From: a virus
Reading direction: 5' to 3' (one strand)
IMG/VR virus record: IMGVR_UViG_3300020347_000008
Span: 1 to 42,373 of that record
DNA: 42,373 nt
The notes beneath the pieces are model-generated. The model worked only from the letters and a program-made list of their open reading frames with translations, had not been told where the DNA came from and ran no database searches. A program made the position numbers and the translations under genes. Shown piece by piece: positions 1 through 13,300 of this stretch. Every line of letters starts with the position of its first letter. Within the stretch, counting starts at the first letter, position 1.

Positions 1-164
1 GCACGTTCCGTCAATGTTAAAGTATAAAATTTATAATCTTTAAATTCACCTTTTAAAATCTTTTTGCCTAGTTTCTTATTAGTCGACGGCTTTAAGACTT
101 TAAATTTATAAGTGTCTAAATTGTGAACGTTCTTTTTGTATATCGTGGTTTCTAAATGTGTCAT
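1..164 (-). CDS. small early protein, 5' part of a gene crossing the window ends
   Basis: An ATG at 164-162 opens a minus-strand frame that is still open at position 1. It follows a good ribosome site (AAAAAGGAAAC). If position 1 is joined to 42373, the frame continues as Ala-Asn-Tyr and stops with TAA at 42366-42364. That gives a 57-residue, lysine- and threonine-rich protein beginning MTHLETTIYKK. It would be the first gene after the sigma70-type promoter at 212-241, the position of T7 gene 0.3-type host-takeover genes. I recognise no family. The function is unknown, and the early host-interaction role is inferred only from position. Confidence 0.75.
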   Translation of the reverse strand, partial: MTHLETTIYKKNVHNLDTYKFKVLKPSTNKKLGKKILKGEFKDYKFYTLTLTER

Positions 165-167
165 AGC

Positions 168-185
168 GTTTCCTTTTTGTTTACG
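168..185 (-). repeat. early leader repeat, copy 1
   Basis: The minus strand reads CGTAAACAAAAAGGAAAC just before the ATG at 164. It matches the leader of the gene at 42314 (42318-42334) except for one A. Both leaders also share AAACAAACGTAA farther upstream. The segment carries the Shine-Dalgarno sequence AAGGAAA, so it is likely a duplicated translation leader of the early genes. Confidence 0.6.
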
Positions 186-211
186 ATTGATTACGTTTGT
201 TTACTATTGAA

Positions 212-241
212 ACCCTACCACGATATTTATTTTTATGTCAA
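212..241 (-). promoter_or_regulatory. sigma70-type early promoter
   Basis: On the minus strand a perfect -35 box TTGACA (241-236) is followed after 18 bases by TAGGGT (217-212). That hexamer has the key T, A and final T of a -10 box and is preceded by TG plus one base, an extended -10 element. Transcription would start near 205, about 40 bases before the first early ATG at 164. This fits the T7 scheme, in which host polymerase transcribes the early genes up to the phage RNA polymerase gene. Confidence 0.65.
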
Positions 242-308
242 CTCATTCGTGAAAAAAACAGTATTACAAGGGTTCGCGTGTGTGTGCGAATTATTTCAAA
301 AGTAAAAC

Positions 309-370
309 GCCGGACGTAATGCCACACAATTAGATCATCATGAATCATTCGAATCATTACGATTTCCGGC
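309..370. repeat. imperfect inverted repeat (large stem-loop)
   Basis: GCCGGACGTAATG at 309-321 is complementary to 355-370 (CATTACG, three extra bases, then TCCGGC). This makes a 13-bp stem with a 3-base bulge and a loop of about 33 bases, which contains ATTCGAAT. On the minus strand the stem is followed by GTTTTACTTTT, so it could act as a weak terminator for late transcription. A packaging or end-processing signal is equally possible. Confidence 0.5.
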
Positions 371-582
371 AGAAAAAAAGTGGACTATCGGCGGCGGCCA
401 GGCTGGGGTGGCACGGGGGGATGCTATATGTAGCTGGGGGCAGACATGACCTTACGAATCTTAGGCATTTTTTGAAGACGCGTACAGACACGTACAGAGG
501 CGATAAGCACAACAGAGGGTAAACACTCCGGTGTATAGCTTAAAGTCTCTGTACGAGCTTTACAGACGCTTTTAACGCCTAG

Positions 583-987
583 TTATGACGTACTATCAAG
601 GTAACTAAGAGGATATTCTTTCCAAGGTAGTTGGAAGTGTGGCCCATCAGGGAATGACTTCCATTCTCCACCCCACTCAACGGGAATCTTTAGTTCTTTA
701 GACGCTGATTGAAACGCTTGGTTAATCTTGTCGTACAATGGCATTTCCCATCGGGCGATACCACCGACATACGCGAAGACATCTACGGCGTGACCTGAAA
801 GGTGTCTACTTTTTAACGTAGTAGTAACCCCTTTAGCTAGATATTCCTTTTGAGTCTCTAGAGTTCTTAGTCCTTCAGACACTCCAAAGTCTATTTCAGT
901 TGTTTGAATTGCTCTATAAACAATCTTTACAAGATCAGGGTGTACTCCTACAAGTTTACCCATAGACCTATCGCTTAATTGGTACAT
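583..987 (-). CDS. endolysin, L-alanyl-D-glutamate peptidase type (peptidase M15)
   Basis: This 134-residue protein is close in length and layout to the T5 endolysin (137 residues). It would cut the peptide stems of peptidoglycan at the end of infection. The M15 zinc site is visible: SRHLSGHAVD at residues 60-69 (H62 and D69) and DGPHF at 114-118 (H117), with EWGGEW near 104-109 in the place of the catalytic acidic segment. The start follows GGGAGACGGA. It is the last gene of the late transcription unit, after the large terminase. It stands in for the T7 amidase (gp3.5), which is absent. There is no signal peptide, so release depends on a holin, most likely the product of 4483-4866. Confidence 0.9.
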   Translation of the reverse strand: MYQLSDRSMGKLVGVHPDLVKIVYRAIQTTEIDFGVSEGLRTLETQKEYLAKGVTTTLKSRHLSGHAVDVFAYVGGIARWEMPLYDKINQAFQSASKELKIPVEWGGEWKSFPDGPHFQLPWKEYPLSYLDSTS

Positions 988-1036
988 TCCGTCTCCCTAT
1001 AATTTCTAACGCTCTCACGTAAACGATTCCTAACAT
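968..1036 (-). CDS. possible 22-residue peptide between terminase and endolysin
   Basis: An ATG at 1036-1034 follows a good ribosome site (GGGAGACATAT) and opens a 22-codon basic reading frame that ends inside the first codons of the endolysin gene. The spacing and overlap suit translational coupling, but a frame this short can arise by chance and no family is recognised. It may only carry ribosomes toward the endolysin start. Confidence 0.25.
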   Translation of the reverse strand: MLGIVYVRALEIIGRRNVPIKR

Positions 1037-1051
1037 ATATGTCTCCCTAAG

Positions 1052-2902
1052 TTATCTATCAGACATCCACACTTCTGTACGAATGCCATCTTTACTACGA
1101 CCACGTAGTCCTAGCTTACCGCCTGACTCGTGCCATTCCACAAAGTCTTCCATTTCTTCATCAAGACGTTGCTGAATTACTCCACGTGCAGCTTCCGCTA
1201 CATCCTGACCCATAGATCGCTGATAGTGTGCTACTGCACCCGCTACGGCATCTAATCGGTCATCGTGTTTTAATGACCCACGATCTCTTGTTACGTGGGA
1301 TAGTTGATATAGTAGTGAGAACCGGTGATCTTCAGCGCGTGACTCACGTCTCGCCAAGTCTTCATCAATAACTAAACGATGTTGCGCCATGACGGGTTCA
1401 AGGGTGTCAATAATACGTAGTTCCTTTTGACCTTTCGCCCATTCCGATTCTTTAACAGTACAACCGCCGGGCCATACCTTAGATAATATAGGTTGAAACG
1501 CGGTGACCCACATGCCTTGCCCAAAGTTCGGCTCGACTTCAATGGTCTGTACGTCGTACTTTTTAGCATCAACTGCAATCTCTGTCATAGCTTGCGCGGG
1601 GTCGGCAGCAAAGCCACCAACGTGTAACAGATACATAATACCGTTTAGTACACCTAGGATTGCCCATGCCGTTTCGTCAGCACCGCGTCCCGCTGGGTCA
1701 ACAAAGAGAACTTTTGACTCATACTTTTCCCATTCGCTATCTAAAAATAGCGGACGTAAGAAGTGATCGCCGGAGAACCCTAAGTTTGGTATATCTTTAA
1801 CGTAGTTGTTCTTATCATTGTGTCGTCCCCATTGCACAGTTAGTGGTGCTTTAAGTGGGTTACATGACATAACGATCAAGTCATGTTGTTTTAATGGGTA
1901 ACGCTCCGCGTCACTCAACGATGTATCCAACATGTACTGTAAAGCAAACGATGCTCTACCTTTTGATTCAATTTTTAATAACTCTTGCTCACCAAAACGA
2001 CTGTCAGTAGTTTGACCATACGATGTTTCTTCGGTGTCAAACATATGACGTAAGTATGGCGCAAGTATATTTACTTCTTCACCCGATTGAGTGTCAGTAA
2101 TTAAGTAATTCTTTAATTTATCAACTGTAGGATATCGAACCGGTATCGTAAAACATCGGAATCCCATCTCTGATACTAATTTGTTATACACAGATTCTTC
2201 GGTCTGTGGCGTTCCTAGGAGAATAATGTCTCCCTTTCCATGTTCTGTTTTAGTAATAGGTACAAAGTCAGACTGAATGATACGTACGATCCTACTACGT
2301 GCTTCTTCAGTTAAACTATTACGTTCAACTTCGATATCATCCGCAACTAATAGAGTCGCACGTGATCCCGTGATCTGTCCGGTGATACCTCTTGCTGCAA
2401 CACTATAGGATTGTGACAATGAACCACCAGCAACATCGAATTGATCTGCCATGTCACGACGTGTCGCACCAGACTCTCGTCTACCATCTAACAACCATTG
2501 GACAATCTCCATAGATTCTAAGATACCTTTAGTCTGCGCCACGAACTCTTTCGCTTTAGAACCGGTAGCAGACACAACAAGTATCTTCTCGTCTCTAGGA
2601 TTGCGCATTAGACGCCATATAGCGTACGCTGACGTGATGTAAGACTTACCTAGTGAACGGAAACACCTAATGATGTCTTCACGTGGCTGGTAAGGGTCTA
2701 TGGTCGTTTTATCTTCTGTTGAATCTACACCGAATTGTAGTCGATGTGCTATTTGATATTGTGCCGGAGTCGGGTCAGGTAGACCCAGATGTTTCCATGT
2801 GATAAACAGAAAGTTTCTAAAGTCTTCGAATGCCCCATGAACTTCTATCGGGAACGTTTGTACCCAATGAGGTTCTCCCTCTAACATTAAAGGTTTTAAC
2901 AT
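1052..2902 (-). CDS. terminase large subunit (DNA maturase B, T7 gp19-like)
   Basis: This is the ATPase-nuclease motor that packages DNA into the prohead (616 residues; T7 gp19 has 586). It shows the T7-type Walker A segment CFRSLGKSYITSA near residue 80, a Walker B-like LLVADD, and the nuclease-domain segments VLFVDPAGRGADETAWA and HDDRLDAVAGA with their conserved aspartates. I chose the ATG at 2902 because it follows TAGGAGACGAT. A longer frame to 2989 would run into tRNA-Pro. The promoter-like element at 2942-2961 lies about 40 bases upstream. The partner small subunit is probably 3376-3615, on the other side of the tRNA pair. Confidence 0.95.
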   Translation of the reverse strand: MLKPLMLEGEPHWVQTFPIEVHGAFEDFRNFLFITWKHLGLPDPTPAQYQIAHRLQFGVDSTEDKTTIDPYQPREDIIRCFRSLGKSYITSAYAIWRLMRNPRDEKILVVSATGSKAKEFVAQTKGILESMEIVQWLLDGRRESGATRRDMADQFDVAGGSLSQSYSVAARGITGQITGSRATLLVADDIEVERNSLTEEARSRIVRIIQSDFVPITKTEHGKGDIILLGTPQTEESVYNKLVSEMGFRCFTIPVRYPTVDKLKNYLITDTQSGEEVNILAPYLRHMFDTEETSYGQTTDSRFGEQELLKIESKGRASFALQYMLDTSLSDAERYPLKQHDLIVMSCNPLKAPLTVQWGRHNDKNNYVKDIPNLGFSGDHFLRPLFLDSEWEKYESKVLFVDPAGRGADETAWAILGVLNGIMYLLHVGGFAADPAQAMTEIAVDAKKYDVQTIEVEPNFGQGMWVTAFQPILSKVWPGGCTVKESEWAKGQKELRIIDTLEPVMAQHRLVIDEDLARRESRAEDHRFSLLYQLSHVTRDRGSLKHDDRLDAVAGAVAHYQRSMGQDVAEAARGVIQQRLDEEMEDFVEWHESGGKLGLRGRSKDGIRTEVWMSDR

Positions 2903-2941
2903 ATCGTCTCCTATACGTATAGTATATACAAAGGGGGGGTC

Positions 2942-2961
2942 TGGGCATAAGCACCCTCTAA
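2942..2961 (-). promoter_or_regulatory. repeated promoter-like element, copy before terminase
   Basis: The minus strand contains AGAGGGTGCTTATGCCC, shared with copies at 35551 and 38486 and in variant form at 23812 and 27154. Here it sits directly after the CCA end of tRNA-Pro and before the terminase gene, and no accepted gene starts at it. That favours a promoter of the phage RNA polymerase over a translation signal. The layout (TTAG block, then C-T-T-A-T, then G) resembles SP6-class promoters, which is an inference. Confidence 0.6.
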
Positions 2962-2962
2962 T

Positions 2963-3039
2963 TGGTCGGAGATGCTGGATTCGAACCAACGACCCTTCGC
3001 TCCCAAAGCGAATGCGCTACCAGGCTGCGCTAATCTCCG
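2963..3039 (-). tRNA. tRNA-Pro (anticodon UGG)
   Basis: A full 77-base cloverleaf with an encoded CCA. The acceptor arm CGGAGAT pairs with ATCTCCG. The anticodon stem TTCGC/GCGAA holds the loop TTTGGGA, giving anticodon UGG, and the T arm GTTGG-TTCGAAT-CCAGC is standard. It lies three bases downstream of tRNA-Arg, and both were probably acquired from a bacterial genome. It would help to decode CCN proline codons during late expression. Confidence 0.95.
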
Positions 3040-3042
3040 TTT

Positions 3043-3119
3043 TGGTGCGCCCGAAGAGATTCGAACTCCTGACATCTAGTTTCGTAGACTAGCACTCTAT
3101 CCGGCTGAGTTACGGGCGC
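3043..3119 (-). tRNA. tRNA-Arg (anticodon ACG)
   Basis: A full 77-base cloverleaf with an encoded CCA. The acceptor GCGCCCG pairs with CGGGCGC. The anticodon stem CTAGT/ACTAG encloses CTACGAA, giving anticodon ACG, normally edited to ICG to read CGU, CGC and CGA. The T loop is TTCGAAT. CGT and CGA arginine codons are common in the phage genes around it, which may explain why it is kept. Confidence 0.95.
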
Positions 3120-3124
3120 ATCGC

Positions 3125-3385
3125 TCAAGTGTATTGGCGTTTGCCTATCCGTAAATAACCCTCAATGCTTGTCTCAGGGTCAGGCTTACTAGACTGTATC
3201 ATTTTAGCTGCACTATCAACTTTTAATGTTTTCTTATTTTTATTCTTTTTTTGTTGGGCTATTTGTTTTGCCGTCAACAATAAATCACTTTTAGCTTTTA
3301 CCTTTCCAACTTTCAATGTCTCTGGGATTCGACGCGCAGCGTTAGTCATTGACTGTGAATTAGATAGTCCTGAAGTTACTGCCAT
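3125..3385 (-). CDS. basic protein of unknown function before the tRNAs
   Basis: This 86-residue lysine-, serine- and glutamine-rich protein begins MAVTSGLSNSQ. Its ATG overlaps the 3' end of the preceding gene (3376-3615), so the two are probably translationally coupled. There is no membrane segment or cysteine motif. The middle (about residues 25-55) is strongly basic. It lies between the probable small terminase gene and the tRNA pair ahead of the large terminase. A packaging accessory or DNA-binding role is possible by position only. Confidence 0.75.
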   Translation of the reverse strand: MAVTSGLSNSQSMTNAARRIPETLKVGKVKAKSDLLLTAKQIAQQKKNKNKKTLKVDSAAKMIQSSKPDPETSIEGYLRIGKRQYT

Positions 3386-3615
3386 TTCTCATTCTCCTTT
3401 GACGATACTTCAAAAGGCATCACCTTTCCGTATTTTTCTAAACTTGCAGAAATCTTTTTTGCCGTAGGAAGGTCTTCGACTTCTTCAAATGGTGGAAATG
3501 TTTTTAAGAAATTAGTCACGGCGGAAACCATTGATGGCGATAGTTCATCATCATTGGCTACAATTTTTTTAAGACGTGTGTAAAGTTCGTCTCTTAATTC
3601 AGCGGTATCTTTCAT
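3376..3615 (-). CDS. probable terminase small subunit (DNA maturase A, T7 gp18-like)
   Basis: A 79-residue acidic, mostly helical protein beginning MKDTAELRDELYTRLKKI. Its length, the segment LSPSMVSAVTNFLKTFPPFEE and its place after the holin region and before the large terminase match small packaging subunits of T7-like phages (T7 gp18 is 89 residues). Such a protein recognises phage DNA and loads the large subunit. The ATG at 3615 is preceded by a TAGG ribosome site inside the end of the upstream gene. A longer frame upstream only reads through that gene in another frame. The call rests on size, composition and order rather than a catalytic motif. Confidence 0.55.
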   Translation of the reverse strand: MKDTAELRDELYTRLKKIVANDDELSPSMVSAVTNFLKTFPPFEEVEDLPTAKKISASLEKYGKVMPFEVSSKENEKWQ

Positions 3616-3616
3616 C

Positions 3617-3733
3617 CTAGTAACCTTTTTTCTTTGTGGCTGGTTTTGTTTTAGCCGTTTTAGTTTTTGCAATTTTTGCTTTTGCTTTCCCTTTTGCAGT
3701 ATACGGGAATGTTTTATTTCCGACTTTTGGCAT
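3617..3733 (-). CDS. 38-residue very basic protein (MPKVGNKTFPYT type)
   Basis: ATG at 3733 follows AGGAGAAGTCAAG. The product begins MPKVGNKTFPYTAKGKAKAK and continues as alternating Lys/Ala/Thr to a GY end. I recall the same opening in many small marine-phage proteins of this kind, an impression from memory. The charge suggests nucleic-acid or envelope binding. No function is known to me. It overlaps the upstream gene by 20 bases and ends two bases before the next one. Confidence 0.8.
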   Translation of the reverse strand: MPKVGNKTFPYTAKGKAKAKIAKTKTAKTKPATKKKGY

Positions 3734-3839
3734 CTTGACTTCTCCTATAAACAATATTAATTGCGGTATTCATAAACACGGCAATCATGGTTAATGTCTG
3801 CATAAACAGACCGATAATTCCAATTAATTCTAAATCCAT
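3714..3839 (-). CDS. 41-residue single-pass membrane protein
   Basis: ATG at 3839 opens MDLELIGIIGLFMQTLTMIA, one long hydrophobic helix over residues 4-31, followed by a basic tail (RRSQDAKSRK). It overlaps the next gene by 20 bases. Its place in a run of tiny membrane and basic genes beside the holin candidate suggests a lysis accessory or membrane role. The ribosome site AAGGAG lies rather far upstream (about 14 bases). Function unknown. Confidence 0.65.
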   Translation of the reverse strand: MDLELIGIIGLFMQTLTMIAVFMNTAINIVYRRSQDAKSRK

Positions 3840-3845
3840 CTAACT

Positions 3846-4001
3846 TCAACTTACTCCTTTGTCATCAAGTTTGCTATACATTTTTTGCCATTCTTTACTA
3901 TTAAATATGTACGCTTCTTTAATTTGCTGGATAGTTCGGAAACACCCTAAACATATGCCCTCTTCATTTAAACGACAAATACCAACACAAGGTGTGTTCA
4001 T
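3846..4001 (-). CDS. small DUF1289-like cysteine protein
   Basis: A 51-residue protein with the pattern PCVGIC...C-x2-C-F-R-T at residues 4-22 (C5, C9, C17 and C20). That is the hallmark of the DUF1289 family of small, possibly metal-binding bacterial proteins (PCVxxC ... CxGCxRT). The rest is a short amphipathic helix containing KEWQKMYSKL. ATG 4001 lies directly after the stop of the upstream gene. DUF1289 has no settled function, and a phage copy this short is unusual. It may bind a metal or redox partner in the cell. Confidence 0.75.
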   Translation of the reverse strand: MNTPCVGICRLNEEGICLGCFRTIQQIKEAYIFNSKEWQKMYSKLDDKGVS

Positions 4002-4130
4002 TTATTTAAACCTTTTTTGTATGTATTTAACTGAAGCATAAACACCAAGACCTAGCGCGATATATGCCAACCCATCAAACCAAGACATATGGTGTAACAC
4101 TTCTACTAAGTCTGCGGTGATCCAATCCAT
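4002..4130 (-). CDS. 42-residue membrane protein
   Basis: ATG 4130 follows GGAGAGATAA. The product has one transmembrane helix (about residues 18-35, FDGLAYIALGLGVYASV) and a basic end (KYIQKRFK), a layout seen in pinholin-like and other small phage membrane proteins. It abuts the DUF1289-like gene with no gap. A lysis accessory is possible, but nothing recognisable fixes a function. Confidence 0.7.
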   Translation of the reverse strand: MDWITADLVEVLHHMSWFDGLAYIALGLGVYASVKYIQKRFK

Positions 4131-4139
4131 TTATCTCTC

Positions 4140-4265
4140 CTATTTCTTTTTCTTAGGGAATCCGGCTTTCATATTAGAATAAGCCTTTTTAGTCACGGTA
4201 GACTTTGCTTTACTTCTAGATGTACCGGCTTTTTTTCGAGCATTAATATTTTTATAGAGACTCAT
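4140..4265 (-). CDS. 41-residue conserved basic phage protein (MSLYKNINARKKAGTSRSK type)
   Basis: ATG 4265 follows AAGGAATAATT. The product begins MSLYKNINARKKAGTSRSK and ends MKAGFPKKKK. I recognise this as a small basic protein that recurs in marine phages next to holin and terminase genes; this is from memory of the family, not a search. It has no hydrophobic segment. The dense positive charge suggests binding to DNA, RNA or membrane surface. Function unknown. Confidence 0.85.
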   Translation of the reverse strand: MSLYKNINARKKAGTSRSKAKSTVTKKAYSNMKAGFPKKKK

Positions 4266-4294
4266 AATTATTCCTTATGTTTAGATTGATTAAT

Positions 4295-4486
4295 TTAGGC
4301 TTCCGCCCCGTTGACGATGGTGCATTCGTATTCAACTGATTGCCAATTTCCATCTTGTGGAAAGTCTTCATGCTTAATCTTCATCTCAATACATTGAGGT
4401 TTGTCTTCAAACCATGCTATTGTTTGAGACGCACATTTATCGTTAAGACAAACAGTTAATAACAACGTCCAAATAATTTCGGTCAT
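4295..4486 (-). CDS. small exported-looking four-cysteine protein
   Basis: The 63-residue product has a hydrophobic N-terminus (IIWTLLLTVC) and four cysteines at 13, 18, 32 and 55. It starts within the stop of the holin candidate (ATGA overlap). The layout is like the 65-residue protein at 30273-30470 (cysteines 9, 17, 33, 58), so the two may be distant paralogues. A periplasmic disulfide-bonded protein is the simplest reading. Its job is unknown. Confidence 0.75.
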   Translation of the reverse strand: MTEIIWTLLLTVCLNDKCASQTIAWFEDKPQCIEMKIKHEDFPQDGNWQSVEYECTIVNGAEA

Positions 4487-4866
4487 TTCTTTCCAAACAT
4501 CTTAGATGCTCCTTTGATTCCAAACGACGCACTTACAATAACTCCTAAAGTATATTTATACCAATCTGGCGTCATAGACAAGGCTTGAAACCCGCGCTCA
4601 ACGTATTCAACTGTGAACGGCAAGAAACAAAGTAAAAGGGGGATGCTGAACAAAATTGTAAGGTACTCGTCTTTCCAACTGCTGTCTGAATTTTTTTGAG
4701 CAACTACATCCCAAGCAATTTCTCCAGATATTTGTTTTTCTATTATAGATGTTTCAGCTTCAATCTTTACTAAAGCTTGTTTTGCTTTGGCTTTCTTGGT
4801 GTCCATGTACCCTTCGACGGCACTACTAGCGACCCCAAACAAACCTTTTAATACTAAACCAATCAT
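4483..4866 (-). CDS. putative holin (GTA/3TM holin-like)
   Basis: This 127-residue protein has a short hydrophobic start, a charged helical middle (residues 20-65) and two strong membrane segments in its second half: EYLTILFSIPLLLCFLPF, and YKYTLGVIVSASFG before a basic end. The DEYLT...PWYK-type layout resembles the three-TM holin family found in gene-transfer agents and marine podoviruses. A holin would permeabilise the inner membrane so that the signal-less M15 endolysin reaches peptidoglycan. It follows ATTAAGGAGACATT and lies in the right block, between tail and terminase genes. Confidence 0.7.
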   Translation of the reverse strand: MIGLVLKGLFGVASSAVEGYMDTKKAKAKQALVKIEAETSIIEKQISGEIAWDVVAQKNSDSSWKDEYLTILFSIPLLLCFLPFTVEYVERGFQALSMTPDWYKYTLGVIVSASFGIKGASKMFGKK

Positions 4867-4875
4867 AATGTCTCC

Positions 4876-5343
4876 TTAATTGTGTTTATTTGTATACCAG
4901 AAGACTCCCGCAAACGTTGCAGCGCAAATAACACCAGCGATTATAATCCACAAAATAACATAACATATGTTTTCAATTAAAGCTTCACGCTCTCGTTTCG
5001 CTTGTTTTATTGCGTCAGCGCGTGAAACTCTAGCTTCAGCTTGGAAACGAATCCAATCTTGCCATAATCCTGGGCGACCGCAATAGATCATTACTTGTTT
5101 TAGTTCTTCTTCTTGTTTATGAATTTTTTCAAGAGCCATAAACTCTTCTAAATCATTTCCATCCTTACCGCCCACCTTTGACCAAAATGAATTCTTTTTC
5201 TTATTTCCTTTTTGTGCTAATGCATCTTTGGCATTGACGAAATCCCCAACTGCTTTTCCACAGTCGAAGATTTCTTTACCATTGGATAGGGCGCGTTTAA
5301 TGACGGAAAAAGCTGCGTTAGCCGCCGCTAATTCCATTAACAT
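4876..5343 (-). CDS. membrane-anchored helical protein of the lysis/packaging block
   Basis: A 155-residue protein from ATG 5343 (after GGGAGTAGCA). A longer frame upstream lacks such a site. Residues 1-50 are Ala-rich (MLMELAAANAAFSVIKRAL). The middle is a charged helix with the sequence GRPGLWQDWIRFQAEAR. One transmembrane segment (about 128-150) lies at the C-terminus. The layout of a cytoplasmic helix plus C-terminal anchor could suit a spanin-like, holin-accessory or superinfection role. It overlaps nothing and sits between an XhlA-like protein and the holin candidate. Function unknown. Confidence 0.8.
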   Translation of the reverse strand: MLMELAAANAAFSVIKRALSNGKEIFDCGKAVGDFVNAKDALAQKGNKKKNSFWSKVGGKDGNDLEEFMALEKIHKQEEELKQVMIYCGRPGLWQDWIRFQAEARVSRADAIKQAKREREALIENICYVILWIIIAGVICAATFAGVFWYTNKHN

Positions 5344-5356
5344 TGCTACTCCCTTG

Positions 5357-5563
5357 TTAAACGATTTTCCCGACAATAACAAATGTCAGCGCAATAAACG
5401 CTAGGGTGCTACCCATAATCATGGCTTCAAGTCTCCACAAACGTTTATCAAGCGCAGTCAATTTGTCTTCTACGGATTGATATCGGACGGCACATTCTTT
5501 CTCATGTGCCTCCAATTCTAATTGCACTTTAAGTTGTGCGCTCTGTTCTTGAGATAGCTTCAT
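5357..5563 (-). CDS. XhlA-like coiled-coil membrane protein
   Basis: This 68-residue protein starts at ATG 5563 after AAGGAGTGTCG. Residues 1-45 form a charged amphipathic helix (LEAHEKECAVRYQSVEDKL), and residues 47-66 a single membrane helix. This is the layout of hemolysin XhlA-type proteins, which work with holins in some phages. It opens the presumed lysis block directly after the tail protein genes. It overlaps no neighbour. It could also be an inner-membrane spanin. Confidence 0.7.
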   Translation of the reverse strand: MKLSQEQSAQLKVQLELEAHEKECAVRYQSVEDKLTALDKRLWRLEAMIMGSTLAFIALTFVIVGKIV

Positions 5564-5572
5564 CGACACTCC

Positions 5573-7648
5573 TTAAAATGCAATTGGCATAAGTGTGGTT
5601 GTAGATTCATCGTCATCTTCAGGTAACATAGATTCACCAGCGTATCCGACACCATAGAACGTGCCATCTGTCATTTTAACAAACATAGCACCTTCTGAAC
5701 CACTTCCCGCCAAATAAAAACTATCTGCTTTCTTACGATGCATTAATACGGGTGTAAACCAATACGTCGTACTGTTGGTATTTCCTTGCCCTAATTGTCC
5801 GTTACCACCATACCCAACAGAATGTAATGATCCATCAGCAAGTTGCGCAACGGTAAATCCATACGATCCCGTACCAGCATTCTGGATATCAACAATTGGA
5901 GAACGACCTGATGCATTAAATGATTGTAATTCAGCCGTCACATCATTACCATTAGGATCAGCTTTACATTCAGTAAATCCGGTACGTGATGTTGTATCCG
6001 CACCTACGCCTAATTGACCATAGCCGTTGTATCCGGTTGCCCACAATGAACCATCAGTTTTTATAGCAAATGTGTTGGTGTAATCAGAACCTCTCATCCA
6101 GCATTTTGAAACACCAGCAAGAACAAGTTCCGGCGTATATCGGTTACCCGCAGTACCCCCAAGATTACCATAACCATTGTAACCCCATGTATACAAATTA
6201 TCCGCGTCATCAATAGCAAATCCAGCGGCTCCGGTATCACCCGAAAGACCTATGTCTGTAACTGTAATACTATTGTCGTAGAAATAACTAATTAAAGTTG
6301 CATTAGATAAAGAAGTAGTATTTCCTTGTCCTAATACTCCCGCACCGTTATTCCCCCAAGCATAGACATTACCATCACTTTTAAGAGCAAGAAGACTTGA
6401 GTATTGTGAGTCACTTTTAACAATTTTAGTAATACTTGTTAAACCACTTACTTGAACAAATCGACTTTGGCTTGTTGTATTTCCATTACCAATTTGACCA
6501 TAACCATTATATCCACAAGCGTGTACTGTACCGTCACTACATAACACATGGTTTGACGAATAGTCTCGATTACCATTAGACGCTGCGTTTTGTGTTACGG
6601 TTTTTCCGTTAATAGAATTAGCAGAATCTCCGCTGGCATAATATGGAGTGTGAAGCGCGGCGGTACTTCCGCTTCCACCTTCACCATATCCGTTTCCACC
6701 CCAACACCAGAGTCCACCATCTTCATCAATAGATAAAGAATTATAGTCATAATTACTATAAACGTAAGTCATTTTTTTTGAGCCAAATGGAAAAGCAACT
6801 GCCGTAGGATAACTTCTATCGGCGGTATCTACACCGCGCCCGCCACAAAAGTTTTCACCACGACCCCAATACCTAATACTTCCGTCGTCCATAATCGCAT
6901 TACCTTTACGATACATGGCATTAGATTGAGGGTCTTGATGCCCAATTACACGCATTCCAGAACGAGTGTCACTTGTACCCCAATATGGAAAACCATTAGT
7001 ATCAATTTTTAAGACATCTCCCGGCGCACCAGAAACAAGAGGCACTAACTCTGTGCCGTTATAATAAATAATATCACCAGGATTTTCTGTAATGTTATCT
7101 ACACCTTGAGCCATTAATGCCCAACCCGCCCCATACGCAATTGAGCTTGATGTATATTTGACGTTCATACGTCCGCCCATGCCCGCATGAATACCACATT
7201 TATAAAACAACGTAGCTGGGGTCGAAGCATCCGTAACGATGGTGACGGTTGACCCAATATTACCAGCCGTGCCAGATGACGTTACACCCGTAGTGTAAGC
7301 CGTTCCATCTACCGTTGTTGAAAAGGCGAGAGGGTGACCGGTCATTGTAGAGTCAGCGACATTGAAGACATATGTTCCACCTTTTAACAAGTGTAGTGTC
7401 TCTTGTTGTACGCCATCAACAAAGTATTTATTACTGCCACCAACTACCCCTACAGTTACTGTATGGTTAGTAGTTGTTGAAACTAGTGTCCCCGTAATAG
7501 TTGCTGGGTTGACACCGGTTGTGCCATCTGTGTCACAGACATATGTGCTTGAATTATAAGACACGACGTCTTGTTTATTATAAGTCGTTGCAGAAGAGTA
7601 AGCACCCTTCCAACTAAACGACACTTTACCAAGTGATATTGTTGCCAT
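5573..7648 (-). CDS. tail/receptor-binding protein: CBM-like module, cupredoxin-like domain, RCC1 propeller
   Basis: A 691-residue virion protein in three parts. Residues about 8-40 (SWKGAYSSATTYNKQDVVSY) form a small carbohydrate-binding-like module also found at the start of the neighbouring gene. Residues about 60-170 look like a cupredoxin: H105 in GHP, then C151, H154 and M157 in CGIHAGM, the His-Cys-His-Met set of type 1 copper sites. Residues about 235-691 carry eight RCC1-type signatures (GYNGYGQLG and variants), a seven-bladed propeller. It follows AAGGAAATAAATT. By position after the fibre gene it should contact the host surface. Copper binding is inferred from residues only. Confidence 0.85.
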   Translation of the reverse strand: MATISLGKVSFSWKGAYSSATTYNKQDVVSYNSSTYVCDTDGTTGVNPATITGTLVSTTTNHTVTVGVVGGSNKYFVDGVQQETLHLLKGGTYVFNVADSTMTGHPLAFSTTVDGTAYTTGVTSSGTAGNIGSTVTIVTDASTPATLFYKCGIHAGMGGRMNVKYTSSSIAYGAGWALMAQGVDNITENPGDIIYYNGTELVPLVSGAPGDVLKIDTNGFPYWGTSDTRSGMRVIGHQDPQSNAMYRKGNAIMDDGSIRYWGRGENFCGGRGVDTADRSYPTAVAFPFGSKKMTYVYSNYDYNSLSIDEDGGLWCWGGNGYGEGGSGSTAALHTPYYASGDSANSINGKTVTQNAASNGNRDYSSNHVLCSDGTVHACGYNGYGQIGNGNTTSQSRFVQVSGLTSITKIVKSDSQYSSLLALKSDGNVYAWGNNGAGVLGQGNTTSLSNATLISYFYDNSITVTDIGLSGDTGAAGFAIDDADNLYTWGYNGYGNLGGTAGNRYTPELVLAGVSKCWMRGSDYTNTFAIKTDGSLWATGYNGYGQLGVGADTTSRTGFTECKADPNGNDVTAELQSFNASGRSPIVDIQNAGTGSYGFTVAQLADGSLHSVGYGGNGQLGQGNTNSTTYWFTPVLMHRKKADSFYLAGSGSEGAMFVKMTDGTFYGVGYAGESMLPEDDDESTTTLMPIAF

Positions 7649-7659
7649 AATTTATTTCC

Positions 7660-9369
7660 TTAAAATTTAACGGGTGAGGGGGTTGTAGCGTATTCTTGCT
7701 CATCTTCACGACCAAGTTGCCCATAATTATCGTAGCCGGTAGAGTAAACGTTTCCGTCATAACCTAAACCGTAAAACGTGTTGTAGCTGGATGCTTGCTG
7801 CATATACCCACCAACGATCCACTCTTTAATAGGTTTATTAAGTTTCATTAAACTATCGGGAACGTTACCAAGATAGCCATCTGTTATCGTGCCGTTCCCA
7901 GCAACACCCGTGCCATTGTATCCACCATTCTGAAATGATCCGTTATTCTTTTCGACCATCCAAAATCGTCCATAGTTGATGCCTTGTGTTACAAATCTTT
8001 TATTGTCGTAACCATACTCAACTAATCTTGTCCAAACATTGGATACAGTACCCGGAGAATATTGTGTTCCGTACGACCCAGCACCGGGTAAATACCCCAT
8101 ATACCACATCGATCCATCGTTCTTAATGCCCATTATGGTTGGGTAATAGCCATTCCAACAAGATACTTGTTTCCAATTGTTACCATTTGCGCGACCATCA
8201 GAAATCATACCACCAGGGTTGTACACACGTGGTGTAACGTTATACCCACTTTCGTTACCACCCCAATGCATAATCTCTCCGTTTTCGAAAAGAATTACGG
8301 CAATACGATATTCACCCGCACCTGATCCGTGAAAGTAAGACCCATGAAACATAAAATCTTTTGCGGGGTAAACGGCAGTTTGTGGGATTAAAGTATGTTG
8401 AGCGGAGCGCCAATCTGCCACGGGGTATACGTAATTGCCCGCGCTATTGTACTCACCACAAATATACATCCTACCAGCAGCATCTTTTAACACAGACACC
8501 ATATAATCACCGCCACCTAGATAAGCTTTAACCATTGGTATTTCGGCTGATTTAGTAATTAATTTTGGTGTTGTTAGGTCATAATCACCACTATTAGTTT
8601 CTTGAGTACCGCCTGAAGATTGTCTATTACGTCCGACGTAGTACATTCTACCGTCATCAGTTCTAAAAATTCTAGCATTAACTGATGCTTCATTGTTACT
8701 CATGTAAACGTCAGTTACTTTTGCATCGGCGGGAAGGTCACCTTGACCATTAATTAACTTTGGAGTCCATTGATTGGTAGTGTTTCCAACTCCAACTTGT
8801 CCGTAATTGTTGTAACCCCAACCCCATAATTGACCTTTATGATCAATTGAATGTACGGTGTAAATGCATGGGTAAACATCAACCATACGCCCCGCACCTT
8901 CAGGAAACATAACTTGTGTAGGTCTATTACAATTTTGATCTGCTTGTGTTTTTCCACCTAGTGCGCCATATATTGTACGACCAACTGCCATGATTGTACC
9001 ATCGGACATAATAAAGTACATTGTTTCTACCATACCCGCGCCAGAGTTGTCAGCGTAATCAATCTTTGGAAGTTTTGCCACACCGGTTCGACGTGGGTTA
9101 TCTGTTGGAAAAGCAAACTCAGGCATCCCAAGTCCATTAATTTCTAGTGTTTGGTCGACAATACCAGACACAACGGTGGTGTCATCGGGTGTAAGTACTT
9201 CACCTTTTGCCGTACCGTTTTGTTGATCTTGGGTGTGCTTAACCCACGTAGTCCCGTTGTAAGCGTATATTCCACCTTCTTTACGTGTGACGTCTCCATT
9301 TACATAGGTCGCCGTGGCGGAATACTCACCTTTCCAACGGTAGCCGATTTTTGTATAATCAATTTGCAT
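7660..9369 (-). CDS. tail protein with RCC1-like propeller
   Basis: A 569-residue protein with the same N-terminal module as the next gene (WKGEYSATATYVNGDV, residues 12-27). About eight degenerate RCC1-type repeats follow, each built around G-Y-N/D-x-Y-G-Q-L/V-G or a relic of it (WGWGYNNYGQVG, YSTGYDNYGQLG). Unlike its neighbour it lacks the cupredoxin-like domain. The pair looks like an old tandem duplication. It starts after AGGAGACGATT, 11 bases past the fibre gene. A receptor-binding or fibre-tip function is inferred from position; RCC1 propellers generally serve as binding scaffolds. Confidence 0.85.
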   Translation of the reverse strand: MQIDYTKIGYRWKGEYSATATYVNGDVTRKEGGIYAYNGTTWVKHTQDQQNGTAKGEVLTPDDTTVVSGIVDQTLEINGLGMPEFAFPTDNPRRTGVAKLPKIDYADNSGAGMVETMYFIMSDGTIMAVGRTIYGALGGKTQADQNCNRPTQVMFPEGAGRMVDVYPCIYTVHSIDHKGQLWGWGYNNYGQVGVGNTTNQWTPKLINGQGDLPADAKVTDVYMSNNEASVNARIFRTDDGRMYYVGRNRQSSGGTQETNSGDYDLTTPKLITKSAEIPMVKAYLGGGDYMVSVLKDAAGRMYICGEYNSAGNYVYPVADWRSAQHTLIPQTAVYPAKDFMFHGSYFHGSGAGEYRIAVILFENGEIMHWGGNESGYNVTPRVYNPGGMISDGRANGNNWKQVSCWNGYYPTIMGIKNDGSMWYMGYLPGAGSYGTQYSPGTVSNVWTRLVEYGYDNKRFVTQGINYGRFWMVEKNNGSFQNGGYNGTGVAGNGTITDGYLGNVPDSLMKLNKPIKEWIVGGYMQQASSYNTFYGLGYDGNVYSTGYDNYGQLGREDEQEYATTPSPVKF

Positions 9370-9380
9370 AATCGTCTCCT

Positions 9381-10286
9381 TTAGATGGTGTATGCTAAGT
9401 TATTAGAAGTAGTTACACCAAATGCGATATTCTCACCAAGTGTCCAAGTTTTGTAATCATTTACATCAACGTCAATTTTTCCATAATCTACAATAATTTC
9501 TTGTCCGTTTGCTGACATTTTAAGTCCAAAGAATTGTGGAGAAGCCACCGAAGTAACGAGATCATAGCCCGTTCCCGCACTATTAATTTGTAGAAATGAA
9601 CCAGCAGATAATGAACTTGGTAGTCCAGCAACTGTTAATGCCGCCTCTGCCGCAACTTGTGCTGCGATTGCATCATCTCGTGCTTGTTCAGCGGTTGTGG
9701 CCGCCGACGTCGCACCGGCAGATGCCGTTGCGTAGCCTTGTGCTAGACCCGCTTGTGTAGTCGCAATACCAGCTTGTGTGGTTGCCGTGCTGACTTGAGT
9801 TGCCGTTGCGGATAAAACATAAGCTTTATTGGCCGCGTCTGTGTCGTCGACCGGAGCTGCCATATTAATAATACGAGATGTGCCAGCTTCCCAATTGTTT
9901 GCGGAGTTACGAGCCATCGCAACTTCTTTAATATCGTTTGCCTCTTGGGCTAAATAAAATCCTTGTAAACTATCTTGATCAAGAATTTCTTCCGACAAAA
10001 CTGAACCGGTCTGATAGTCGACGAGACGTGTTCCCGGTGAAGTCTCACGCTGAAACACCATCGAATCACCGATAGCGGCGGGTGTTGTTAGAATGACTCG
10101 ACTAGATAATGTCGCGTCAAATTGATAATCGCCTACTACTGAAGCAGTAGACTGTGATAATTGTGTACCGTTTTTAAATACAAGAACATGGGATTGAGCA
10201 ATGTACGGGAAAGGAATGTCAAAGTGCGTCGCATCAGTTCCCGCCAAGCTTGTTACCGTTACCACTTCACGTGCAAATGCTGGCAT
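9381..10286 (-). CDS. tail fibre, T7 gp17 N-terminal type
   Basis: At 301 residues it is much shorter than T7 gp17 (553). Residues 1-150 carry the T7-fibre attachment domain (FDIPFPYIAQSHVLVF and LDQDSLQGFYLAQEANDI). Residues about 155-215 form an Ala/Thr-rich coiled coil, and the remainder is a short beta-rich tip. The absence of a large receptor-binding tip suggests that it is an adaptor, with receptor contact handed to the two RCC1 proteins downstream. It follows the terminator-like hairpin at 10309-10330 and the ribosome site AAGGAAATTATA. Confidence 0.9.
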   Translation of the reverse strand: MPAFAREVVTVTSLAGTDATHFDIPFPYIAQSHVLVFKNGTQLSQSTASVVGDYQFDATLSSRVILTTPAAIGDSMVFQRETSPGTRLVDYQTGSVLSEEILDQDSLQGFYLAQEANDIKEVAMARNSANNWEAGTSRIINMAAPVDDTDAANKAYVLSATATQVSTATTQAGIATTQAGLAQGYATASAGATSAATTAEQARDDAIAAQVAAEAALTVAGLPSSLSAGSFLQINSAGTGYDLVTSVASPQFFGLKMSANGQEIIVDYGKIDVDVNDYKTWTLGENIAFGVTTSNNLAYTI

Positions 10287-10308
10287 TATAATTTCCTTAT
10301 AAGAATAA

Positions 10309-10330
10309 GAGGGGGCGCAATGACCCCCTC
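10309..10330 (-). terminator. hairpin terminator after the largest internal virion gene
   Basis: On the minus strand GAGGGGG and CCCCCTC form a perfect 7-bp stem with an 8-base loop, followed by TTATTCTTAT. It begins four bases after the stop of the 10335-14702 gene. The U tract is interrupted, so it probably attenuates rather than stops transcription into the fibre genes. Confidence 0.6.
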
Positions 10331-10334
10331 AATG

Positions 10335-13300
10335 TTAGTTTTCATTACCCATTGCAACATTTGCAAGTTGGTAATACAATTTAAATGGCATCAATTTGAT
10401 CAAGGTGTCTTGCATAGCATCTGTATCTCCTCGAACGGAAGAGTCTTTTAAGTCCATTAGGTCTTGCAATAGACCACCGGTTGGGCCACCTACTAACGCG
10501 AATCTGTTACGCTCACTTGAGTAACGTGATCCCACTCCACCACCAAAAACATTCAATTCTTTTGATATTTGAGCCATAGGTGTCGAAAGCCACATTAAGA
10601 ACCCTGAACGATCCATAATGTCGTAGCCCCATTCTGTTGGTGTTCTGTCTAAGATTTCACCTTTACGTTTAAGATCAGTTGCTGCCACCACGGTGTAGCC
10701 TAGTAACGCTTGTATGTTGAGTGTCATAAAGGCGTGTAAATCTCCGTATGTTGCCATACGTTGAAATGCTGGTAACATGTATTTTGTCATTGAGACAAAG
10801 CCATATGTTTGAAACTGTAATAGAGCCTTACCAAATCCACGAGACATAAAGAACGGCGTGTCACCCTTACTTGGTGTCATGATTGCTCGTGTAGCAGTAT
10901 GGTCTAATGCAGAAAACACCGCATCATAAGCCCGTTGACCCTCAAGTCCCTCATTCAACCACCTCCCCATTTCAAGTTCATAAACACCTTTATCTAATGA
11001 TGGCGGGTGTTTTTTCATCATTTTTTGGATTGATCTTGCTTCGTCTCTACCTATCCCTAAAGCGGCAAGTTCTGCAATCTCTTGTTCAGCAGCGCCACCT
11101 TTTTGGGCAGAAGCCGTGTCAAAAAGTTTAGCGTAGTTTTGCATCTTAACTACAAGATTATGTTGCATTTCCATCATGGCAATTGCTTTCATACGAGTGT
11201 TCCACCATCGCATTCCTGACATTACGTTTGTCGTTTCCGTTAAGCCACCCAAGCTACGATCAACAATACTTGTACCATAATGTTTCCATGTTCCATGATC
11301 CCCAATGCCTACTTTTGAACCTAAGTCTTCAACGCCCATCATTTTCATGTTTGCGCTTGAAGACATCAATCTTTCACTATAAATAGCAATTCTGGAAATT
11401 TCAGGACTTCGCAATCCTTTAAGTGCGGCGTTTGATTGTTTAAAGTTTTTAACGGCAAACGTCCCCCAACCAGATGTGAAAAGCACATTGGATAGATCAG
11501 TCAATGAAGGTATGATAAATCCTGATCCGTAACGGACGTAGTTAAAAGAACGTGCAGTTTTACCAAACCAAGAAAGAAATCCTTCAGGGTCTATTGGTTT
11601 TCCGTACTGTCCTAACAGATTTAAAATACCGTTTTCAATATCAGATTTAGCTTCATCAGCTTTCTTTTGTATCTTATCTCGTTGTGCTTTTGATTTACCA
11701 GATTTAAGCAAATCAAAGTCGGCTTGTACTTCTGCTTGTAAATCTTCGACAATTTCTTTTTCAGCTTTATGACCAAACGTATCTCTAAGAGCCATACGTG
11801 GTGCTAAGTCTTCCGCACTTCGACGCATCGCCGACATAAGATCGTCGTCTAAAATTCCTAGACGATAAGCTTCAAGACGTTGTTCATTTGTCAAAACAAT
11901 TTGACGTTTCTTTGTTCTTCCTGAAGCTGCAATAAGTTCTCCGTCCCAGCCCCCAAATGGATCACGCTTTCCGTCAGACAATTTAGCCACTAATTCTTCA
12001 ATGTATGTATACAAAGGCGCACGGTTTGCTTGTTTGTTGTACTCTTTCTTAGCTTTCTTAACACCTCGTTTGCTTTGTCCAGCTTCTTTATTTTTAAGTT
12101 TAAGTTCGTCTGCTAAAATTTTTCTATTTTTGGTGATACTAGCTTTGGCATTCTTTGCGGCCGCCAACGCCACACCAACTTTTTCAAGTTTTGGATCAAG
12201 TCGAGCAAGAGTGCTATCAATTTTAGAAAGACGTTTATTGTAGTTATTTAAACGTTCACGAAGCGTTGCGAGACGGCGTGAAGATACCGGCTTTTTCGCA
12301 GCTTTCTCGACTGCTTCACCTAATGCATCTTCTCCTGATCTTGCAAGTTCATTGTCAGCTTTAGTCACCATACGTCGTGTTTCGTCGATATCAGCTTTAG
12401 ATGCTAATACACCTTCGCCTTCAATCATTTTCATCAATGCTTCAGCTTCTTTAACTTCTGTAATTCGCTTCTTTTTGATACCACTAGTTCTTGCAGATAT
12501 CTCATGATATTGATTCATACGAACAATTAATTCAGCTTCTGCTTCTTTTAATTCAGTTTGAGTACGTTCTTTTTCTAGCTTTATTTTTTCTTTTTCTAAA
12601 GCAATTGCTTCACGTTGCCCTTGACGATACTTAATAATTTTCTCAACTTCAGCAACTGTCGCATTTTTAATATCAGTATTATTTTTACGTAAGTCTCGTG
12701 CCGCTAAAACTGCCGCTCTACGTGCGGTATATAGTTTTTCTTCAGCAAGTGAAAGTTTTAAAGACGCTTCGGCTTCAAGACTACGATCGACATTACCAGA
12801 CCAATCTTCTAAAATTTCTTGCTTTTTCTCAAAACCTTTATCAATATCATATTTAACTTCTTTGACATTTTTACCAGCGATAATTTGATCACCTTTTATG
12901 GTAACTTCTTCTTTGCCTAATTTATTAAATTGATCTTCAGTCATCAAATGACTTTCAAGAAGAAATTCATCGCTTGGCTTTTTAGCAAAGACGCCGTGGA
13001 AGAATGCTATAGCTTCAGTACGATTTGCACGAATAGCTTTACTACTCCACAACTGCGCCATGACATAATCTTGGTCACCTTTTGTAGCCATGCCTAAAGC
13101 TTCTAGTAATTCTATTTGCGCATCATGATAAGCCCTAGTGTCATCTGCCAGCTTACGAGCGTTTCGCTCAATAATTTGCCAACCTTCATCACCAAATCTA
13201 TTTTTATATCCAGCAATCATATCATCAGTTAGATTGCCAAAATTCATTTCACGAGCAATAGCAACAAACTCAGCATCGTCAAAATTAGTACCCGTACCAC

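Follow-up and report, generated by a model that had tools for sequence, protein, structure and literature searches.

RCC1-domain proteins have been detected by mass spectrometry in virions of phage GAP32 (PMC5259590) and of phage W70, where they belong to PHROG 4219 and are proposed to act in DNA handling (PMC11370258). The closest described tail arrangements are the anchor-branched systems of Autographiviridae and other phages, among them Klebsiella podoviruses, with KP32viruses group D, KP34viruses group A, the K1-5 adaptor gp37 and G7C gp66 as examples (PMC6872550), in which a short T7-type anchor protein comes first and is accompanied by separately encoded receptor-binding proteins that share a conserved N-terminal stretch, the heads being exchangeable on a constant backbone. 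The locus described here resembles them in all of these features and has RCC1-type proteins at the place of the heads. In the open-access literature we found no description of a pair of RCC1 proteins that acts in receptor binding by a phage.

The window analysed, the whole of a 42-kb virus record (42,373 nucleotides), has the gene layout of a T7-like podovirus. Three genes follow one another on its minus strand with 11 bases between neighbours: an adaptor fibre of 301 aa (9381..10286), a 569-aa ORF that we call rccA (7660..9369) and a 691-aa ORF that we call rccB (5573..7648), the last two confirming the reading frames of the preliminary description. We consider it probable that these genes encode a split receptor-binding apparatus, exchanged as a unit, in which an anchored adaptor carries two docked RCC1 heads. 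The T7 gp17-type N-terminus of the adaptor would fix it to the tail, and an 85-residue docking domain (CTD) would form its other end. The paralogues rccA and rccB would plug into this socket through their N-terminal modules (N-modules) and present their propellers as host-contacting heads, the docking, the receptor binding, the stoichiometry and the presence of both proteins in this virion all being predicted. Such a set would be passed on and swapped as one piece, would sit on different anchors in podoviruses and siphoviruses, and on one podovirus backbone would alternate with other head sets. Judged from sequence and gene order, adsorption is the most likely function of the set. Elsewhere in the window, the genes for the small and the large terminase are separated by genes for tRNA-Pro(tgg) and tRNA-Arg(acg) (2963-3119; terL at 1052-2989, minus strand). 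The TTG listed as start codon of terL overlaps the tRNA-Pro gene, and alignments with most relatives begin only near residue 30, so that the real start probably lies downstream.

Residues 13-159 of the fibre (9810..10250, minus strand) match PF03906 Phage_T7_tail at 8.1e-23 and form the T7 gp17-type N-terminal anchor, which is followed by a variable coil and by the CTD, the proposed head socket (conserved residues 217-301; 9384..9638, minus strand). The CTD has 17 invariant positions across eight relatives. The fibres that carry it have N-terminal parts of about ten kinds, which show no similarity to one another. The fibre had been regarded as truncated. It is of full length compared with its relatives and, because its C-terminus is the conserved domain found in every complete cassette, it cannot be called so. 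A profile search of the PDB with the CTD returned chance T-cell-receptor matches only and no related solved structure, and a search of cultured phages with rccA or the CTD matched nothing.

Both downstream proteins belong to the RCC1 superfamily, as the preliminary description had proposed when it assigned about eight repeats to each. Pfam matches were obtained to WD40_RLD and RCC1 for rccA (9.5e-27 and 3.4e-18) and rccB (2e-55 and 1e-24), with RCC1 repeats of rccB and rccA above the curated PF00415 cut-off (87.3 and 66.4 bits vs 21.7). Their sequence matches in the PDB are HERC2, HERC1, UVR8 and RCC1, and rccB in addition matches PHROG 4219 at 2.7e-33. AlphaFold2 models of rccB and rccA, computed from ten and eleven sequences and of moderate confidence (mean pLDDT 68.6 and 71.4), contain about eight sets of strands, three or four in each. 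With Foldseek, the best PDB matches of both models are all RCC1-type, UVR8 and HERC2 chains among them, with TM-scores to the target of 0.6-0.7 at this model confidence, and UVR8 ranks first for rccA (E 2.3e-21) and rccB (E 7.4e-19). The canonical RCC1 propeller has seven repeats. A repeat HMM found eight in rccB (propeller residues ~241-691; 5576..6928, minus strand), the number that 57 of the 67 members of the family have. In rccA (residues ~113-569; 7663..9033, minus strand) it found seven, and a degenerate eighth is seen by eye; the number thus departs from the canonical count, superfamily membership being unaffected, and an eight-bladed ring is possible. RCC1 propellers are more familiar from animals and plants, and the preliminary description called them best known from eukaryotic binding proteins; the repeats are, however, common in bacteria and phages too and not mainly eukaryotic. 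One viral contig (L035) carries a 4228-aa ORF made up of RCC1 repeats (134-12820).

The N-modules comprise about 46 residues with the pattern LGKI.F.W.G.Y...T.Y..DDVVSY.GS.Y and occupy residues 1-46 of rccA (9232..9369, minus strand; module HMM E 1e-18) and 1-48 of rccB (7505..7648, minus strand; E 6e-20). The two copies share 16 of 45 residues, so that the earlier idea of a shared module stands. Its reading as a carbohydrate-binding module is not supported: Pfam CBM_5_12 scored below the cut-off in rccB (17.6 vs 26.2 bits, E 0.004) and had no match in rccA. Because the module is the most constrained part of these proteins and is common to all heads, docking appears the more likely role. It is found on rccA, rccB and the alternative heads described below, as the conserved N-terminal stretch of further candidate receptor-binding proteins.

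Between N-module and propeller, rccB contains a separate domain at residues ~50-170 that had been overlooked (insert residues 49-175; 7124..7504, minus strand). It is optional, with relatives of ~550 aa lacking it. Four of its residues, H57, C103, H106 and M109, are invariant in 11 chosen homologues; this pattern of His plus Cys-x2-His-x2-Met (x3 in some) is the ligand set of type 1 copper proteins and suggests such a site, motif-free homologues also existing. No significant cupredoxin family or structure match was obtained (PF25489 0.0047; Copper-bind 0.079, in one member; chance matches in the PDB), and with profile matches this weak we keep the possible cupredoxin assignment as a lead. The His/Cys domain also occurs in L188, L195, L186, L032, L073 and L060, as well as in numerous tail proteins of marine phages (PHROG 677, PHROG 30742).

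To follow the cassette beyond the window, relatives collected from IMG/VR and bacterial genomes were mapped with HMMs, giving 35 rccA clusters at 90% identity. Where there is room upstream of rccA, its immediate neighbour on that side is a CTD fibre in 33 of 34 clusters; where there is room downstream, the next gene is rccB in 31 of 32. The exception in both counts, L115, is an RCC1 protein that stands by itself in a bacterial MAG. In 27 of 39 non-redundant complete cassettes the fibre gene overlaps rccA by four bases, and rccB usually follows within 8-41 bases. An RCC1-independent search that used just the CTD brought in another four contigs, and in each of them the order is CTD-rccA-rccB. 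Cassettes occur with T7-like anchors in T7-like podoviruses, between tape measure and J genes in siphoviruses (L007), and in prophage-like regions of the betaproteobacteria Zwartia panacis, Polynucleobacter, Comamonadaceae and Lautropia, next to a tape measure gene in L081 and L087. In the rccB tree the T7-anchored cassettes do not form one clade (AU p 6e-72); its strongly supported branches require at least five changes. The rccB of the window is no more distant from siphovirus and prophage copies (44-48% identical) than from that of L170 (41%), a contig whose terminase is 82% identical to the window terminase.

Several other arrangements were observed. The Micavibrio MAGs L136 and L145 carry, in a prophage-like region (8454-10665), a CTD fibre with a single RCC1 protein, possibly the cassette reduced to its minimum. 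The MAG JAIXUS01, which is labelled Bacteroidetes, holds three cassettes of the betaproteobacterial prophage type (L083, L085, L089), which reflect either several prophages or mis-binning. In L046, L049, L051, L052, L056, L058, L059, L061-L063 and L070-L073, a T7-anchor fibre of ~320 aa is followed by one protein of ~1075 aa with an N-module and RCC1 repeats, nearly always including the His/Cys domain.

Measured against the nearest relative (L075), dN/dS is lowest in the predicted docking and anchoring parts (N-modules of rccA and rccB, 0.06 and 0.04; T7 anchor, 0.05) and higher in the propellers of rccA (0.13) and rccB (0.24). The heads are thus the freer part of the set, yet under purifying selection, and no dN/dS above 1 indicated diversifying selection on the propellers. 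The preliminary description had seen in repeat divergence a special route to host-range change. Across relatives, repeat number proved stable and the exchange of whole cassettes is the clearer signal; the visible routes of variation are substitution and cassette exchange. Divergence of rccB from L017 is raised, in dS too, and recombination may lie behind it.

Over long distances rccA diverges more (29-37% identity) than rccB (40-52%). These unequal rates would fit a division of labour in which only one of the two proteins is the adhesin and its partner serves as assembly factor or cap, comparable to the Tfa or gp38 chaperones, or a connector between fibre and head. Fibre-adjacent chaperones are common, in marine phages too (PMC10579305), and in the Micavibrio prophage the CTD is accompanied by one RCC1 protein only; even so, rccA and rccB have the same architecture of N-module plus propeller and neither resembles a known chaperone family, which leaves this explanation credible though distinctly less probable than a pair of docked heads. 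Some polysaccharide lyases are beta-propellers, and the heads could in principle be such enzymes, lyases or depolymerases, rather than pure binding proteins. Indeed, Autographiviridae with two receptor-binding proteins often carry depolymerase heads (PMC6872550), but the sequence and fold matches of rccA and rccB are to the binding proteins RCC1, UVR8 and HERC and include no lyases, and we regard an enzymatic role as improbable.

The proposal of two RCC1 heads docked on an adaptor gains from what occupies the same locus in relatives, which were picked by terminase alone. In L212, L214, L215 and L244 a T7-anchor fibre is accompanied by three or four N-module proteins without RCC1; these measure 264-302 aa and 553-698 aa and replace the RCC1 pair. 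L223 has a single long fibre at this locus, and L225 and L253 have unrelated proteins. We had considered the CTD to be confined to RCC1 pairs and rejected this, as an iterated profile detects diverged CTDs in the fibres of L212, L214, L215 and L244. Since N-module proteins without RCC1 come next to these CTDs, the CTD correlates with the N-module rather than with RCC1, which is the pattern expected from a socket and its plug. With the iterated profile, an N-module protein follows the CTD fibre in all 33 clusters, whereas among 17 T7-anchor clusters without a detected CTD it comes next in seven and is absent in ten (Fisher p 1.9e-6, uncorrected for relatedness). Most of the seven seem, by eye, to have diverged CTDs, and at the sensitivity of the HMMs the pairing is not exclusive.

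A fold search against viral models pointed to a PollyC protein whose label includes a T7 tail-fibre N-terminal domain. In the cultured Autographiviridae PollyC and Ppr_SeaP1 the corresponding gene stands at the gp17 position, adjoining genes for an internal virion protein and the terminase, and its product matches RCC1 at 1.1e-24 and 5.5e-30 and the T7 anchor at 6.7e-5 and 1e-4, the anchor scores of 23.1 and 22.4 bits lying slightly under the Pfam cut-off of 25.2. Neither the CTD nor the N-module is present in these one-polypeptide proteins, as expected if both parts serve to join separate chains. Such fusions of a T7 anchor to RCC1 are the best single indication that the propellers act as distal fibre heads. 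Together with the strict three-gene synteny and the alternating receptor-protein sets, they support the initial suggestion of a distinct tail or adsorption device in place of a long fibre tip. That rccA and rccB are instead DNA-condensing proteins packed in the capsid, as proposed for the RCC1 proteins of phAPEC6 and W70 (PMC7247149, PMC11370258), on the strength of the domain name rather than of DNA-binding data in the available text of those reports, is very improbable for genes that lie in a fibre cassette, alternate with other tail proteins and travel with the CTD between podo- and siphoviruses, and whose RCC1 domain is elsewhere fused to a T7 fibre anchor.

The three-gene set looks like an exchangeable host-recognition kit. 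Chances are about even that the CTD and the ~46-residue N-module constitute a general, so far unnamed socket-and-plug pair for the exchange of heads among podoviruses, siphoviruses and prophages, and that RCC1 propellers annotated under "chromosome condensation" make up a large and neglected group of such heads. If the proposal is right, phage RCC1 proteins currently filed under DNA condensation acquire a function, a transferable and directly testable docking pair is named, and it becomes clear how the same head set can work on short- and on long-tailed phages with different hosts. Predictions of host recognition would benefit as well in uncultured aquatic phages, most of whose receptor-binding proteins go unrecognised.

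The virion proteins of the jumbo and Vequintavirinae coliphages GAP32, phAPEC6 and W70 (PHROG 4219) likewise have RCC1 propellers; these proteins are about 40 kDa in size and stand in other genomic contexts with a proposed DNA role, and no adaptor cassette has been reported for them. Host-recognition genes common to morphologically different phages are known from the Alteromonas phages A5 and V22 (PMC10579305), whose set is a conventional tail fibre with its chaperone, whereas here it is an adaptor with two RCC1 propellers. The Pseudomonas phages PollyC and Ppr_SeaP1-4 (Autographiviridae-type) and Littlefix (Schitoviridae) share an RCC1 propeller in the distal part of the fibre gene, which in PollyC and SeaP1 occupies the gp17 position and encodes a T7-type anchor in front of the propeller; unlike the set described here, theirs is a single polypeptide that has neither CTD nor N-module. 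The anchor-branched systems differ in their docking parts. Their first protein has a T4gp10-like branching domain; for the CTD, a profile search of the PDB shows no detectable relation to solved structures, T4gp10 included. The plug is a module of ~46 residues here and a short peptide there. The heads described here, in contrast to those of the anchor-branched systems, are RCC1 propellers, always as two paralogues, in a set that is common to siphoviruses too.
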